NCBI GenBank assembly: GCA_001940645.1
Contig: MDVS01000147.1
Span: 1 to 32,310, forward strand
Source: Candidatus Heimdallarchaeota archaeon LC_3
GTDB taxonomy: Archaea > Asgardarchaeota > Heimdallarchaeia > Hodarchaeales > LC-3
Direction: 5' to 3'
Length of the DNA: 32,310 bases
The notes under the pieces: model-generated
Seen by the model: only the letters and a program-made list of their open reading frames with translations
What the model was told of the DNA's origin: nothing
Database searches by the model: none
Shown: positions 7,723 through 28,078 of the stretch, piece after piece
Layout of the letters: every line of letters begins with the position of its first letter
How positions within the stretch are numbered: position 1 is the stretch's first letter
Position numbers and translations under genes: made by a program

Positions 7723-7729
7723 TTTGTTA

Positions 7730-9415
7730 TTGGCGAAGGATAGAAAATTTTGGGCTGATAGATACGTCGAATTATTGCAGAAAAAGGTAGATCAAGAATT
7801 AATATTAAAAGATATTATTAAAGAAAAGGGTTACATTTGTTATGACGAAAAAACTCCATCTGGAACAATTCATATAGGGTCAGGGAGAGGGTGGGTTATC
7901 CATGATACTGTAGCAAGAGCATTACGTGATATAGGTTTAAATGGACGTTTTATTCTCTCTGCTGATGATTTTGATCCAATGGATGCACTGCCATTAATTA
8001 AATCTGATTTTTATAAGCAATACATGGGAATACCTTTTAAATATATTCCTTCACCAGTTGATGGATATGCTAGTTATGCGGATTACTATTTTGAAGAAGC
8101 AACCTCAAAATTTGATGAATATGGTATTGAAGCTGAATTGGAAAGTACTGGTAATCATTATATAAATGGAGATTTTAATAAAACAATTAAACTTGCTCTT
8201 GATAACGCTGATAAAATTCAAGAAATCTTCACACGATTCTATTCGAATACTGTTATGTCTAAGAAACTACCATTCAATCCTATTTGTGAAAAATGTAACA
8301 AAATTGGAACAACTATAGGGTACAAATGGAATAAAGAAGAAGAAAAGGTTTCCTATCGTTGTTCTCCTGACCTAGTGGAATGGGCTACTGGTTGTGGTCA
8401 TGAAGGTATGATATCACCATATAACGGTAATGGAAAATTCCCATGGAAAGTTGAATGGGCAGCAAAATGGCCAACTATTGGAGTAGTTTTTGAAACAGCA
8501 GGAAAAGATCATTTTTCGGCAGGAGGGTCTAGAGATATATCAATAGCAATTGCTCGAGAGGTTTTTGATTTCCCCCCTCCTTTTCCATCATCTTATAAAA
8601 AAACTGAAAATGGTTACAAATACAAAGTTGGAGAAGCTTATGAATTTTTTACAATTGATGGAGCTAAAATGTCCACAAGTAAAGGATCCGGATTTTCCTT
8701 TGCTGAAATGGGAAATTTTGCTCCTGGACATATAATAAAATATCTTTTAGCGAGAAAAAGACCAAAATCTACAATTGAATTTGATCCTATAGATGGTCTG
8801 GGGGATGTTTATCGAGATTATGATAAAACTGAAAAAATGTATTATGAAGCTATTATGGATAAAAAGTTATTAGAAAATGATGTATATTTCAATGCACATA
8901 GGTTATTTCAATTATGTTATGTTGGAAAATTCTATGACGAATTACCACCTCAAATAGAATTCAAATTCGGTGTTATGCTTGTTCAAATAACAGATACGAC
9001 TGAACAAGCAATTGAGAGATTAAAGGAGAAAGGTCATATTGATTCAGATGTTGGAGAAGATAAATTAGATAGGCTTAAATTACGTTTAAATTTTCTTAGA
9101 AAATGGGTTAAAGATTTAGCTCCTGAAGACAAAATTATTAAAATCTCTTCCGGGAAAATCAAAAATATTGGTGAAATGGATAAAAAATTTATCACTGATG
9201 TAATCACAACGATTAGGGAATCTAATAATGATGAAAATAAGTTAAGAGAGGGATTTAGGACTGTTTATTCTAATCATAATCTCTCTCCGAGTGATTTTCA
9301 TTCCAAGATTTATAAATTTTTATTTAACAAGAATTCTGGTCCGAGGCTTGTTCCATATATTGTGTACACAGGAGAAAAGAAAATAATTGATAGATTTGAA
9401 TTTTTAATCAAATAG
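7730..9415 (+). CDS. lysS: lysyl-tRNA synthetase, class I
   Basis: Charges tRNA-Lys with lysine. This is the class I form found in most archaea and a few bacteria, unrelated to the class II enzyme of eukaryotes. The HIGH-equivalent is PSGTIHIG (43-50) and the KMSKS loop is KMSTSKG (313-319). A zinc-binding CEKC pair with later cysteines (CSPDLVEWATGCGH) sits in the middle, as expected for the family. The 561 residues are near the usual 510-560. Three leucine/TTG codons crowd the start; GAGGG at 7718-7722 is 7 bases from TTG 7730, so the protein begins MAKDRKFWADRY. The helical C-terminal anticodon-binding region is complete to residue 561. It converges with the wHTH regulator 13 bases downstream. 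Confidence 0.95.
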   Translation: MAKDRKFWADRYVELLQKKVDQELILKDIIKEKGYICYDEKTPSGTIHIGSGRGWVIHDTVARALRDIGLNGRFILSADDFDPMDALPLIKSDFYKQYMGIPFKYIPSPVDGYASYADYYFEEATSKFDEYGIEAELESTGNHYINGDFNKTIKLALDNADKIQEIFTRFYSNTVMSKKLPFNPICEKCNKIGTTIGYKWNKEEEKVSYRCSPDLVEWATGCGHEGMISPYNGNGKFPWKVEWAAKWPTIGVVFETAGKDHFSAGGSRDISIAIAREVFDFPPPFPSSYKKTENGYKYKVGEAYEFFTIDGAKMSTSKGSGFSFAEMGNFAPGHIIKYLLARKRPKSTIEFDPIDGLGDVYRDYDKTEKMYYEAIMDKKLLENDVYFNAHRLFQLCYVGKFYDELPPQIEFKFGVMLVQITDTTEQAIERLKEKGHIDSDVGEDKLDRLKLRLNFLRKWVKDLAPEDKIIKISSGKIKNIGEMDKKFITDVITTIRESNNDENKLREGFRTVYSNHNLSPSDFHSKIYKFLFNKNSGPRLVPYIVYTGEKKIIDRFEFLIK

Positions 9416-15737: not shown

Positions 15738-17459
15738 TTAATCTAATTCAATAATGAATTCGCAATATGAAAATCCTAATGAATGACAGGAAACTTCTTT
15801 TACTCTAATATCATCCTCTAATATTCTTTCTAATCTTCCTTGAATAAATCCTGCGGTAAAATTACAAAGAACTGCCTTTTCTCTATCAACTTCAAATAAA
15901 AGTTGTCCCTCCACTTCGAAGTTTAAACCTGCGCTGATTGCGGATTCATAGATCTTAATTCTAATTGTTTCTTCATCTTCAACTTCTAAGAAAGATTGAC
16001 CATAAAGTCGTGTCAGGATTGTAGAAGGGTCATTTAGATATCCTAAAAGGGCTTTACATCCTACACCAAACTCTAATGGGCTTTCTAAGTTTGACTTTTT
16101 CATTATTCTTTCCATAATTTCGAAGTCTTTACCATGCTTTCCATAATGAATACCTGCATAATATAATAATGAAGAAAAGAAAGGATCTGAAAATTTAATT
16201 CCATTTAATGCTTGTTGTAAAACAGAAATATGCACATAATCCCCAGGATTCGGTCTTAATACAGTCCTCAACAAAGAACTTTGATACATATTCTTAGATA
16301 TAACGTTAAGTGAATTCTGGAATCTAGCTTTTTCTTCTTTATTTAAGAATGGTCTTGTTTTTTCATGACTGAAATCCTTTTTTTTTCCAATTTCGATATC
16401 GAATTGACACAAATTATCACCTAAACCCCAACATTTACTTTCAACAACAGAAACATTCTCTTCTCCAATGGTTGTTTCGATTAACCCAGCAATTTCTCCT
16501 GCTATTAAATAACAAACCGGTTGACCTATTGGAGCCATTCTTGCTGAATATGCTGAATCATAGACCTGAATTGAAGCAATTTTTTTCTCATTCCTAGTGA
16601 CTAACGATCGACTAGTTAAAAATAAGGGTAATCCATATGAATTTGCAGAATATAGTTCCTGTAAACCTTCTAATAAATCCCTGAATTTACTAGTAGAGTC
16701 AGTATGTTCTAAGATTCTAGGATTGGCTGTTAAAAAACGAAATTGAGTATTAGAATACTTTCCCATATTTACTCCTACATCATAAAGATATTGTCTGGAT
16801 GCTGGATTAATTGCAAGAATACTTGTTACAATCGATTGTAATACCCCAATATGTACGTAATCTCCCAAAGAAGGTCTTGTAAGCTCTTGAATAGTCTCAA
16901 GAGTCATAGTTTTTTGAGATATTGTTAACATGTTATATTTTTGCCATCTACCCAGTTCTTCTTCTGAGGATTCGACTGAAGCTTCAATTAAGCTATTGAA
17001 TAATTGGTTAAATATTGCATTATTTGCAAATATTCCTCCACCTGAATCTCCTTGATCAAAATTTAAAGCACTAATAGGATTTGATTCATCAATGGGTGGT
17101 GTTTCCGATTCAAAAGGTGATTGTCCCTGTGGTAAATCAAAAGTCCCAAATGGATTTCCCTGGTTTTCACCATTCATACCGGCTGCACTAGTAGAAAATG
17201 CTCCCAATTCTTCACTCAGAAGCTCTGCAGCCATTTGAGCAGTTAACACCATTTTATCATTAAACAATACAGCAGGAACGTTCCGAACATTATATTTCTC
17301 TGAAAGTTCAGGTTCTTCATCAGTGTCTATTAAAGTTAACGATACATTTGACATCGAAGATGTAGAAATGATAGTTCTTAAATTCCGTTCAATAACTTTA
17401 CAAGGAGCACATGATACTGACTTAAATAATACAATCGAAACTCTGCCTATATTCTGCAT
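15738..17459 (-). CDS. thioredoxin-V4R-V4R fusion protein
   Basis: A three-part cytoplasmic protein. Residues 1-85 form a thioredoxin fold with a CAPC redox motif (C17-C20) and the cis-proline segment NVPAVL (60-65). Residues 86-170 are a Gly/Asn/Pro-rich linker. Two copies of a unit of about 165 residues follow (195-357 and 400-573). Each begins with PGDYVHI- or LGDYVHI-like strings, then a helical part (DVGVNMGKY / YAGIHYGKH), then a V4R domain with the typical ending: KCWGLGDNLCQFDI (342-355) and SCHSLGFSYCEFII (557-570). V4R domains bind small hydrophobic ligands or metals and share the fold of Bet3/TRAPP subunits. A redox sensor or ligand-gated scaffold is plausible. The ATG has an AGGACC site upstream. 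Confidence 0.85.
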   Translation of the reverse strand: MQNIGRVSIVLFKSVSCAPCKVIERNLRTIISTSSMSNVSLTLIDTDEEPELSEKYNVRNVPAVLFNDKMVLTAQMAAELLSEELGAFSTSAAGMNGENQGNPFGTFDLPQGQSPFESETPPIDESNPISALNFDQGDSGGGIFANNAIFNQLFNSLIEASVESSEEELGRWQKYNMLTISQKTMTLETIQELTRPSLGDYVHIGVLQSIVTSILAINPASRQYLYDVGVNMGKYSNTQFRFLTANPRILEHTDSTSKFRDLLEGLQELYSANSYGLPLFLTSRSLVTRNEKKIASIQVYDSAYSARMAPIGQPVCYLIAGEIAGLIETTIGEENVSVVESKCWGLGDNLCQFDIEIGKKKDFSHEKTRPFLNKEEKARFQNSLNVISKNMYQSSLLRTVLRPNPGDYVHISVLQQALNGIKFSDPFFSSLLYYAGIHYGKHGKDFEIMERIMKKSNLESPLEFGVGCKALLGYLNDPSTILTRLYGQSFLEVEDEETIRIKIYESAISAGLNFEVEGQLLFEVDREKAVLCNFTAGFIQGRLERILEDDIRVKEVSCHSLGFSYCEFIIELD

Positions 17460-17661
17460 TTTAAGGTCCTATATGATTGGTTTTCAAAATGAATTTAAAT
17501 TTGAATAAATTATTAATCAAGTACAATTATTTATTTATTATTTATTTAATTTACCGATTGATTATTTTTTGGTATATTAATTCTTTCTAAATTGAACTTA
17601 TATTAAATTCATTAATAATTTAAAATGATTGAATCGTCTAATTTCTTGCCCGAGTAGCTCA

Positions 17662-17692
17662 AAATTTTAAGCTTTGTTCTTAGATTGGCTAA
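17662..17692 (+). other. tRNA intron in the D-loop (between positions 14 and 15)
   Basis: A 31-base intron. Exon AGCT (17656-17659) pairs with intron GGCT (17687-17690), one G-U. The flanking 3-base bulges are CAA and AAG; cutting after their second bases leaves exactly the normal D-loop AGCACGGTA. Inside, AATTTTAAG pairs with CTTAGATT around the loop CTTTGTT, with one bulged T. This is a bulge-helix-bulge at a non-canonical site. Confidence 0.75.
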
Positions 17693-17716
17693 GCACGGTA
17701 GAGCAAATGGCTGTTA

Positions 17717-17760
17717 TTATTCAAAAACTTTAGATTTTTCTAATAAATCAATTAACAGAC
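17717..17760 (+). other. tRNA intron at the canonical 37/38 position
   Basis: A 44-base intron. Exon CTGT (17711-17714) pairs with intron ACAG (17755-17758), with 3-base bulges TAT and ACA; cleavage after the second base of each gives the 37/38 junction. The outer helix is the anticodon stem AATGG/CCATT; the helix further inside the intron is weak. Confidence 0.85.
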
Positions 17761-17826
17761 ACCATTGGGTCGTGGGTTCAAATCCCTCCTCGGGCGTTAA
17801 TTTATTTAGTTTCTCAATTAGGAAAA

Positions 17827-17839
17827 TTTTTTTTTTTTT
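17827..17839 (+). terminator. poly-T tract downstream of tRNA-Asn
   Basis: A run of 13 T begins about 30 bases after the tRNA. Archaeal RNA polymerase terminates at such tracts on the non-template strand. No stable hairpin is needed or seen. Confidence 0.55.
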
Positions 17840-17965
17840 CATGTTCTAAAAAATAAGAGCTTTACACTTGAAATCAATAATCAATTCTAAATTTATTTTA
17901 TCTCAATCATATAGATTTTACTTATTATACAACACGCATACTATGAATCTATCTAAATTATCCAT

Positions 17966-18043: not shown

Positions 18044-18601
18044 TCACTTTATAACTTTAGCTGCATGAACATGAGTATTAAGTCTATCATCACACCCAGA
18101 GCAATTAGCATAATCATGTGATTGCGAAGTGCGAGATATAGTACCCGAGAGATTTTTAGAACACCTTATGTGTTTTTCTTTACTGGTATTACGTGGATCG
18201 ACAGGAATTAGTTTAATAAATCGTCTGGTATTATGTTCACTAACAAAGCATGCTTTTTCTACGAGATCAGGTTCATCAGGCATAGAAAGGGTAGTTTTTG
18301 CGAGCGCACCTCGTTTTCCCCTTACACTTATATGAAGATCTTCTATACAAAGAATAAAGGATTGTGATCGGACTAACATGGTGCTGATAGTATGACTGAC
18401 CTCCCTGTGAAGTTCTTTGAGTAATCTAGCGCGACGAGCATACAGACGGGAAATTTCACAACGAAGTTTAATAAGCATCTTTTTCCTATTGAATCTTTTA
18501 GTAGTGTGAATAAAATCCTTAGCATTCTTACTATCTGGTTTTGTGTCTGGATTTGAGATGAGGTTCTTTAGATTTTCATACTTCGATTGATACTGAGATT
18601 T
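18044..18601 (-). pseudogene. tnpB: decayed TnpB (IS200/IS605/IS607-type) C-terminal remnant
   Basis: Remnant of an RNA-guided transposon nuclease. The open frame continues upstream of the first ATG (18478) to a stop at 18602-18604, giving about 185 residues against a usual 350-450; the N-terminal half and the first RuvC aspartate are gone. What remains reads like TnpB: ELHREVSHTI, the RuvC glutamate in CIEDLHISVRG, TSK with a broken zinc-ribbon first pair, an intact CSGC second pair and NTHVHAAKVI at the site where TnpB has the final RuvC region. Several zinc and catalytic positions are not conserved, so it is probably inactive. Base and codon use is clearly richer in G and C than the neighbours, indicating foreign origin. 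It is flanked by tRNA-Asn and a degenerate copy of that tRNA. Confidence 0.7.
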
Positions 18602-24053: not shown

Positions 24054-25658
24054 TTGTTCAAACATCCGGGTAAGAGGAATGCGATACAGTATTTTCCTTC
24101 TGCATCCATAATTTTATTCACATTAGATAAAAAAACTAACGAACTGTTAATATATTTAGCGAAACGAAGAGATGATTTAAAATTTTTCCCGGGTTTATAT
24201 TCTGGTATAGGGGGAAAAATCGAGAAATCTGATTATAAATTTGCTGAATTAATTAAAAACAACAGCGATTTTAGTGAATCACCAGATGAGATCAGTTATC
24301 TAATTTGTGCATGGAGAGAGCTCCTTGAAGAAGTAGGAATATTCTACTACAAAACTAATAACACCGAACTTGGAAATCGTGTACTAAACTATGCTATATC
24401 ACAAAAAAGTATAGATATAAGCGTATTATTTGAAAAATTTCAATTGAATATACATAATATTCATTTTAATGATTTTATTAAGGCAGGTTTTAGATATACA
24501 CCTGAATTTACTAATAAAATATTCACAACACGATTTTATTTGTTATATATTGATAATGAAAACTATTATCCCTTAATTAATGATTCTCATAATGAATTTA
24601 CCACTGGATTATGGGCTAAACCTGAAGATTTATTTTTAAAATTTAAACAGAACAAATTTCAAACTTCTCCACCGATTTTAGGAGTGATTCGTGAACTTTT
24701 TAATTTTCCTAAATTAAAAAAAAGTGGTAATTCAATTTTACCATACAATGCAATTGAAGTCTTGAATACAAATGATGATCTTCCATTAGGACTTCAAGTG
24801 AGAATTGAACCTCATTCAGGTATACAAATAATCCCATTTAAAAGTTTAACAAGGCCACCGGCAACAACTACAAATTTTATAATAATTGGCAATGAAAAAA
24901 AAATAATTGTCGATCCAGGAACACACATACCTCAAGAGAAGAAACGTTTAGATTTAATAGTTAATTTGTTAAAAGCAGATGATTCGGAAGTAATGTTTCA
25001 GGTGATAACACATCATCACCAAGATCATTGGCAAGCAGCTACTTACATAAGGGATAAATATGATATTCCCATAGCTTTGCATCCACAATTTAATGATTAT
25101 TTGGATGAAAGTGAAATTATCCCTATCGATCTAAAATTAAGTGATGAACAGAGAATCAATTTAGGAGTAGATAAATTTAATAAGATTAATTGGGATATTC
25201 GGGTAAAATTTTTGCCTGGACATACTAATGATCATCTTGTATTAATTGATGAAAGATTTCAGGCATTAATGGCTGGAGATTTAATAGCTGGAGTTGGTAC
25301 GGTAATCATTGAAAATTTAGAACAATATTATAGCTCATTAAAATATTTGGATAAAGAAAATATAACAATGATTTTTCCCGGTCACGGACCTGTTATTACC
25401 AAGGGAAAGGAAGTTATAAAAAACTATATTCGACATAGAACTTTACGAGGTGAGCAAATCCTAGCAACAATAAATTCTGGTCAAGGAAAAACAATCAAGG
25501 AAATTACTCAAAAAGTGTATAAAGATATTCCAAACTCTTTTCTTATGATTGCTGAAAAACAAGTAAGGGTTTATATGAAATATTTTAAGGATAAGAATTG
25601 GGTAAAATTTAATCCGAATAATTCCAAATGGATTCAAACAAAAGAAAAAGTTCACTAA
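24054..25658 (+). CDS. NUDIX hydrolase fused to metallo-beta-lactamase-fold hydrolase
   Basis: Two catalytic domains in one chain. Residues 10-225 are a NUDIX domain: PGLYSGIGGKIE (46-57) begins the NUDIX box and RELLEEVGI (88-96) ends it, so the metal site is intact, though the box has a long insert (about 25 residues) between its two halves. Residues 240-530 are a metallo-beta-lactamase fold with HHHQDH (320-325; metal ligands H320, H322, D324, H325), H390 in LPGHTNDH, D409 in MAGD and H444 in FPGHGP, followed by a winged-helix-like C-terminus as in LACTB2-type proteins. It may hydrolyse a nucleotide or CoA derivative and then a thioester, phosphodiester or RNA. The start is TTG 24054 with GGTTGA 7 bases upstream. 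Confidence 0.87.
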   Translation: MFKHPGKRNAIQYFPSASIILFTLDKKTNELLIYLAKRRDDLKFFPGLYSGIGGKIEKSDYKFAELIKNNSDFSESPDEISYLICAWRELLEEVGIFYYKTNNTELGNRVLNYAISQKSIDISVLFEKFQLNIHNIHFNDFIKAGFRYTPEFTNKIFTTRFYLLYIDNENYYPLINDSHNEFTTGLWAKPEDLFLKFKQNKFQTSPPILGVIRELFNFPKLKKSGNSILPYNAIEVLNTNDDLPLGLQVRIEPHSGIQIIPFKSLTRPPATTTNFIIIGNEKKIIVDPGTHIPQEKKRLDLIVNLLKADDSEVMFQVITHHHQDHWQAATYIRDKYDIPIALHPQFNDYLDESEIIPIDLKLSDEQRINLGVDKFNKINWDIRVKFLPGHTNDHLVLIDERFQALMAGDLIAGVGTVIIENLEQYYSSLKYLDKENITMIFPGHGPVITKGKEVIKNYIRHRTLRGEQILATINSGQGKTIKEITQKVYKDIPNSFLMIAEKQVRVYMKYFKDKNWVKFNPNNSKWIQTKEKVH

Positions 25659-26986: not shown

Positions 26987-27066
26987 GGGCCTGTAGCTCA
27001 GCCTGGTTTAGAGCGCTCGGCTCATAACCGATTGGTTCGGGGGATCGAAGCCTCCCAGGCCCACCA
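26987..27066 (+). tRNA. tRNA with CAU anticodon (elongator Met or Ile2)
   Basis: Acceptor GGGCCTG pairs with CAGGCCC; discriminator A; CCA is encoded (27064-27066). D-stem GCTC/GAGC, anticodon stem CTCGG/CCGAT (first pair C-T mismatched), loop CTCATAA with anticodon CAT, T-stem GGGGG/CCTCC with one G-T. It is not an initiator: the G1-C72 pair and the lack of three G-C pairs in the anticodon stem argue against that. Elongator Met and the agmatidine-modified Ile2 cannot be separated by eye. The T-loop is ATCGAAG instead of TTCGAAT, the variable loop has six bases and the D-loop one extra T. Confidence 0.85.
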
Positions 27067-27850: not shown

Positions 27851-28078
27851 TTGAAAGCAATATTGTTAATTCGTGTAGTGCCGACAAAAGAAAAAATTGT
27901 TGGAGAATTATTAAGAAAATTTGAAGAAGTTAGTGATTGCTGGGTTACATATGGGGAGTATGATGTTGTTGCTATAGTAGATGTCAATGATTCTAATGCA
28001 ATAGCTAATTTTGTAACAAAAAAAGTTAGGCAAATGGATGGAGTTAATAAAACCTCAACGCTGCTATCTATTGATTAG
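27851..28078 (+). CDS. stand-alone Lrp/AsnC ligand-binding (RAM) domain protein
   Basis: A 75-residue protein consisting only of the effector-binding domain of Lrp/AsnC regulators, without the DNA-binding helix-turn-helix. The beta-alpha-beta-beta-alpha-beta pattern is clear: ILLIRVVPTKEKIVGELLRK, then VSDCWVTYGEYDVVAIVDVN and a final VRQMDGVNKTSTLLSI. The V-TYGEYDVVA strand with its GEYD motif is the family hallmark for the amino-acid pocket. Such single-domain proteins are known in archaea and bacteria and may partner full-length Lrp proteins or bind amino acids in other settings. The start is TTG 27851 without a strong ribosome site. No full-length Lrp gene lies in the window. Confidence 0.85.
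   Translation: MKAILLIRVVPTKEKIVGELLRKFEEVSDCWVTYGEYDVVAIVDVNDSNAIANFVTKKVRQMDGVNKTSTLLSID

Follow-up and report, generated by a model that had tools for sequence, protein, structure and literature searches.

Introns of archaeal tRNA genes are described as having medians of 12–25 nt and a range of 11–129 nt (PMC4090602). Besides those at the canonical position 37/38, non-canonical introns of the bulge-helix-bulge (BHB) class have been reported from Crenarchaeota, including Thermoproteales, from Thaumarchaeota and from Caldiarchaeum (PMC4090602, PMC8450103, PMC3293823), the last of these having introns in the D arm of its tRNAs (PMC3293823). In the parts of PMC4090602 drawn on here, insertion points are scattered and motifs may be relaxed, the HBh' form being described as a variant of the BHB. 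Relaxed motifs are tied to the (alpha-beta)2 and epsilon2 types of splicing endonuclease, EndA (PMC6379350), and in other archaea the positions of tRNA introns go with the kind of endonuclease (PMC6379350, PMC4033280). The closest described systems are those of Atabeyarchaeia and Freyarchaeia, in whose three genomes 92–95% of the tRNA genes carry at least one intron (PMC11291895, 2024). The relevant part of that report states that the introns are often non-canonical, that more than half of the tRNA genes have several of them and that some were missed by tRNAscan-SE. Non-canonical and multiple tRNA introns have thus been reported in Asgard archaea, and therefore the phenomenon is already known there. 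The novelty that the initial annotation had implied for introns outside 37/38 in such a host is reduced to that extent, since it is already in print (PMC11291895). This was the only report of non-canonical Asgard tRNA introns that we found in the open-access literature, and earlier ones may exist.

Here we describe a tRNA-Asn(GUU) gene with two interruptions, which occupies positions 17648–17796 (149 nt, plus strand) of a 32,310-nt stretch of archaeal DNA, referred to below as the window. The gene resembles those of Atabeyarchaeia and Freyarchaeia in its Asgard host, in the non-canonical position of one intron and in having more than one intron per tRNA gene (PMC11291895). Gene finders had difficulties in both cases; tRNAscan-SE missed some introns there, while ARAGORN and Rfam missed the gene here. 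Unlike in those genomes, with their 92–95% of intron-bearing tRNA genes, the only other tRNA found in the window (at 26987, anticodon CAU) is intronless, and the present contig looks Hodarchaeales-like rather than like either of those two groups. With the non-canonical introns of other archaea the locus shares a relaxed motif (HBh' or hBH in those described) and a D-arm site, and some of the described introns are likewise accompanied by one at 37/38. Those introns, however, belong to other phyla, and 14/15 is not among the example positions given in the part of PMC4090602 used here, a list that ends in 'etc.'. The two-intron tRNA-Asn thus probably extends a known Asgard phenomenon to another Asgard class.

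The gene begins at the first base of the acceptor stem (17648, 5' GCCCGAG) and ends with CTCGGGC followed by the discriminator G at 17796. The acceptor halves enclose the D stem, the GUU anticodon arm, the variable loop and the T arm (Table 1). All 7 acceptor pairs and all 4 D-stem pairs are formed and the anticodon stem has 5 bp, while the T stem of the spliced form contains one mismatch, U50-U64, which is absent from the initial annotation. The spliced D-loop has 9 nt with the invariant positions right, and G15 stands opposite C48, the usual tertiary pair. A sigma-70-type promoter scan is inapplicable to archaea, and the TATA-like candidate in Table 1 was picked out by eye.

Table 1. Coordinates of the two-intron tRNA-Asn(GUU) gene, of its splicing motifs and of viral genes used for comparison.
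Feature	Position	Strand	Evidence or remark
Candidate TATA-like box TTTAAAAT, 22–29 nt upstream of the tRNA	17619..17626	+	by eye
Exon 1, tRNA positions 1–14	17648..17661	+	sequence, ARAGORN
Predicted D-loop BHB, 5' side: strand AGCU (17656–17659), bulge CAA (17660–17662)	17656..17662	+	
Putative relaxed-BHB (HBh') intron in the D-loop, 31 nt, placed between positions 14 and 15	17662..17692	+	
Predicted D-loop BHB, intron-side helix	17663–17667 / 17682–17686	+	5 bp, one G-U
Predicted D-loop BHB, 3' side: strand GGCU (17687–17690), bulge AAG (17691–17693)	17687..17693	+	
Exon 2, tRNA positions 15–37, anticodon GUU	17693..17716	+	motif enumeration, ARAGORN
37/38 BHB, 5' side: strand CUGU (17711–17714), bulge UAU	17711..17717	+	
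44-nt canonical 37/38 intron	17717..17760	+	motif enumeration; ARAGORN when the D-loop insert is removed
37/38 BHB, 3' side: strand ACAG (17755–17758), bulge ACA	17755..17761	+	
Exon 3, tRNA positions 38–73, discriminator G73, CCA not encoded	17761..17796	+	sequence, ARAGORN
Viral tRNA-like genes with inserts	L107, L109, L110, L111, L112, L113/L114		some clear hairpins

In the raw window both ARAGORN and Rfam at its gathering threshold reported the CAU tRNA at 26987 alone and did not call the tRNA-Asn. Under relaxed thresholds, Rfam gave a partial tRNA match at 17686–17788, scoring 25 bits where the cut-off is 29, and the non-tRNA Rfam matches near the gene were all under their own cut-offs. 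ARAGORN found 0 genes in the full 149 nt. After removal of the 31-nt insert, it returned a tRNA-Asn(gtt) with a full acceptor stem and found the 44-nt intron unprompted, and after removal of both inserts a 74-nt tRNA-Asn(gtt). The coordinates of the initial annotation, which had placed introns at 37/38 and 14/15 of a tRNA-Asn, proved exact. A scan of the window for T arms combined with 7-bp acceptor stems, which is blind to genes whose acceptor or T arm is disrupted, gave 7 rows, of which only those at 17648 and 26987 were judged by eye to look like tRNAs.

For the splicing motifs, we enumerated all sites within the 149 nt at which a 4-bp helix borders a 3-nt bulge on both strands (200 places). 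The 37/38 intron has a 4-bp central helix with 3-nt bulges and predicted cuts after the second base of each; its outer helix is the 5-bp anticodon stem and its inner helix has 2 bp. Its removal restores a normal anticodon loop, as called by ARAGORN. In position, 4-bp core, 3-nt bulges and anticodon-stem outer helix it is like a canonical archaeal 37/38 intron, and its 44 nt exceed the medians given in PMC4090602 but fall inside the range; a further difference is the inner helix of just 2 bp. The D-loop insert likewise has a 3-4-3 core at the junction that restores the tRNA, with one G-U in its central helix AGCU/GGCU. When a legal D-loop (A14 R15 ... GG ... A21) was demanded together with a 4-bp core and 3-nt bulges, one pair of cuts qualified, and it joins A14 to G15; the insert can be shifted one base to the left with the product unchanged. 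With the cuts placed behind the second bulge base on both strands, the two introns come out as delimited in Table 1. The BHB search thus bore out the earlier description of both introns as 3-4-3 motifs cut at that base, with the cores AGCU/GGCU and CUGU/ACAG. For the D-loop intron the BHB assignment holds in its core and its 5-bp inner helix. The outer helix, however, has 0 bp and the strict motif with helices on both sides is absent; therefore the motif is of the relaxed HBh' form.

How often such a motif arises by chance was estimated from dinucleotide shuffles of the insert. Any 4-bp core at a legal junction appeared in 1024 of 5000 shuffles (about 20%), and 34 of 5000 (about 0.7%) had a core flanked by a helix of at least 5 bp; with the whole loop shuffled, the respective counts were 1241 and 40 of 5000. 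The bare 3-4-3 core is weak evidence, because about 20% of shuffles have one. The initial statement that the match is unlikely to be chance consequently stands for the core with its helix of at least 5 bp but not for the core by itself. Folding did not favor the motif. With the D-loop BHB forced, the folding energy was -34.3 kcal/mol; the best fold that leaves the acceptor, T and anticodon parts unchanged reached -37.8 kcal/mol, and the one retaining the D stem -35.3 kcal/mol. The BHB thus costs 3.5 kcal/mol relative to the best of these folds and is not the preferred one. Being preferred is helpful but not strictly defining, and the energies come from a plain secondary-structure model without tertiary contacts or protein binding. 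With the 37/38 intron removed, the values were -27.7 (BHB), -32.8 (free) and -29.8 kcal/mol (D stem), and local folding gave -3.9 for the D-loop BHB vs. -7.2. Two further origins of the insert were considered and rejected: as a copy of the other intron (the best local alignment score between the two, 9, was reached by 770 of 5000 shuffles) and as a repeat of nearby sequence (no direct repeat of at least 8 nt in 17600–17850).

The spliced sequence was used as a query in 20 genomes and gave matches in 14 of them; among 105 loci scanned, tRNA-Asn rows were obtained in 14. Bacterial L067 and L078 (AGC), bacterial L073 (A14-A15) and viral L085 were left out of the comparison. The remaining 11 archaeal rows represent 10 genes, one seen twice, and three of them, from different genomes, have an identical printed sequence. 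The D-loop begins with A14-G15 in all 11 rows and with AGC in 9, as in the spliced form. This agreement is support rather than an independent test, because the loci were fetched by their likeness to the spliced form. The D-loop of the window tRNA had been called perfect; this is right for the invariant positions, but its 9 nt compare with 7–8 nt in the 11 archaeal rows. An archaeal genome has, adjoining an intact gene, a second tRNA-Asn-like gene with a different 3' half (L086:1687–1763, minus strand), which may be a decayed or intron-bearing copy.

Taken together, we consider it highly probable that the host, an Asgard archaeon near Hodarchaeales, has here a functioning tRNA-Asn(GUU) gene interrupted by two BHB-class introns, and a real, functional two-intron gene is, judged from its sequence, the most likely interpretation. 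Speaking against it are the missing outer helix, the unfavorable folding of the D-loop motif, the second tRNA-Asn that ARAGORN draws with a 5' half from inside the insert, the 9-nt D-loop, the U-U mismatch and the failure of the scans described below to give a relative with this intron. Both introns would presumably be spliced out. The precursor would be transcribed whole, the archaeal splicing endonuclease would cut each bulge between its second and third bases, and an RtcB-type ligase would join the exons. At the D-loop intron, strand A9-G10-C11-U12 would initially be paired with the intronic GGCU and not with its D-stem partners, and the D stem would re-form after cutting. As the D-loop motif has no outer helix, an EndA tolerant of relaxed motifs should be needed, a prediction that draws on published work on other archaea.

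An unlikely alternative is that the 31 bases are no intron but stay in the tRNA as an extended D-loop, as seems to be the case in some viral tRNA-like genes. Scanning viral contigs with patterns, we found tRNA-like genes in which 23–40 nt separate the D-stem half from GGTAGAGC (7 distinct inserts), so that a long D-loop region alone does not prove an intron. A CUUAG/CUAAG hairpin is also available to the window insert, and keeping the D stem gives a fold 1 kcal/mol better than that with the D-loop BHB. Against its own shuffles, however, the window insert folds with a z of 0.06, i.e., with no excess structure, unlike a selected hairpin, whereas 6 of the 7 viral inserts have z<0 and 5 of the 7 z<=-1.3 (range -3.39 to +0.6). 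The lowest value is that of L113, whose insert has two hairpins. A BHB with a flanking helix of more than 2 bp was present in none of 6 distinct viral inserts (some core in 3 of 6), as against 5 bp in the window; these six controls have little power, because the chance rate is a few percent, and in the viral scan the loop rule was somewhat looser, and the minimum insert shorter, than in the shuffle test of the window. We dropped as controls L108 (a pair of adjacent tRNA genes rather than an insert), L114 (identical in sequence to L113) and L106 and L111 (T-loop rule unmatched); L111 was folded against shuffles and stands outside the BHB count. No tRNA call by ARAGORN was seen for the seven viral genes with inserts, which are thus tRNA-like by pattern and eye only. 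We think that several of the viral inserts are retained hairpins and that the window insert is not, the six controls proving little in this respect.

The viral scans also brought up one contig as a tRNA-Asn with a D-loop insert, the sole one from that pattern, and this candidate was rejected since it is actually a tRNA inside a tRNA. L085:6110–6258 (viral contig IMGVR_UViG_3300013947_000465) holds a complete tRNA-Asn(GUU), its CCA encoded, within the anticodon loop of a tRNA-Lys(UUU), at 36/37 by parse, and ARAGORN calls both tRNAs once they are separated. Release of the inner tRNA would leave tRNA-Lys halves needing ligation. No second nested tRNA of this kind was found in the viral contigs with exact and loosened patterns.

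It is very unlikely that the locus is a pseudogene in which an insertion broke the tRNA-Asn gene while another copy serves the cell. The U50-U64 mismatch in the T stem would fit such a history, as would the TnpB-like match, below cut-off, about 250 bases downstream, so that mobile DNA may be near. Yet the acceptor, D and anticodon stems (7, 4 and 5 bp) are intact, the BHB of the 37/38 intron is kept, and one gene per isodecoder is predicted for most archaea in the part of PMC4307357 used here. More improbable still is an assembly or sequencing artefact as the source of the D-loop insert. A second copy of the locus was not found in the LysRS, alignment and V4R scans of genome and viral contigs, as an artefact would allow. 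Specifically, the LysRS scan of genome contigs confirmed no close relative with the same tRNA, no Asgard name occurs in the titles of the best 80 of 157 loci from the alignment scan (several read just 'archaeon'), the V4R alignment against viral contigs confirmed no relative, and these scans together gave no relative with the same D-loop intron. The junction coincides with a BHB and a legal D-loop, a combination met in the 34 of 5000 shuffles, and the absence of direct repeats speaks against an artefact as well. Finally, a true 5' half starting at 17678 inside the insert, with 17648–17677 as a decoy, is scarcely credible: ARAGORN calls a tRNA-Asn(gtt) with that other 5' half when the 37/38 insert alone is removed, and the sub-threshold Rfam match likewise begins inside the insert, at 17686, but from 17678 ARAGORN draws 5 of 7 acceptor pairs, of which two are T+G, and the D stem is mismatched; the start at 17648 is preferred because of its 7/7 acceptor and 4/4 D-stem pairs.

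The reading as a two-intron gene includes an Asgard host, and the origin proposed at the outset as likely Asgard was upheld by the neighboring proteins. The gene upstream, 15738–17459, encodes a protein with thioredoxin and V4R domains and ends 188 bases before the tRNA. It has 57 relatives, and all 10 with organism names are Asgard (Hodarchaeales or Hodarchaeota, Heimdallarchaeota, Promethearchaeota). The best 19 matches of the LysRS besides itself have 54–71% identity, and the three with organism names are all Asgard as well (Thorarchaeota, Hodarchaeales, Promethearchaeota). A Ras-family GTPase and a JAB-domain protein are also encoded in the window. On these protein matches, assignment of the host to Asgard archaea appears secure, and a Hodarchaeales-like host is likely. 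The LysRS is of class I (7724–9415, plus strand); among the 120 matches listed for it, 11 below the top 20 are named, 6 as DPANN, 2 as Asgard and 3 as 'archaeon' alone. Downstream of the tRNA, 18044–18478 (minus strand) holds a TnpB-like ORF fragment (PF07282, below cut-off), perhaps the remnant of an IS200/IS605-type element. Elsewhere in the window, 24054–25658 (plus strand) encodes a fusion of a NUDIX and a metallo-beta-lactamase domain, the winged helix of the latter being weakly matched, and 27851–28078 (plus strand) a stand-alone Lrp/AsnC ligand-binding domain of 75 aa (PF01037), which is preceded, after the CAU tRNA, by about 0.8 kb without an ORF of at least 90 aa.

For the endonuclease itself, on whose type the initial annotation expected the D-loop intron to bear, a protein search from a DPANN EndA query had 224 matches; no Asgard name occurs among the 120 listed, most of which are without organism name. 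We found no description in the literature of the EndA subunit type or specificity loop for the Hodarchaeales-like lineage, and the words Asgard, Promethearch, Lokiarch and Heimdall are all absent from PMC12397907. We see about an even chance that Hodarchaeales-like Asgards splice relaxed-motif D-loop introns from an essential tRNA; if they do, their EndA would therefore be of broad specificity. A practical warning is that such genes can escape tRNA finders, as this one escaped two programs, and that Asgard genomes can then seem short of a tRNA. The Hodarchaeales-like group has been proposed as closest to eukaryotes (PMC12395588, in the part cited here). If D-loop introns were usual in Heimdallarchaeia-like Asgards, their EndA would provide a good test of the origin of the four-subunit eukaryotic enzyme.
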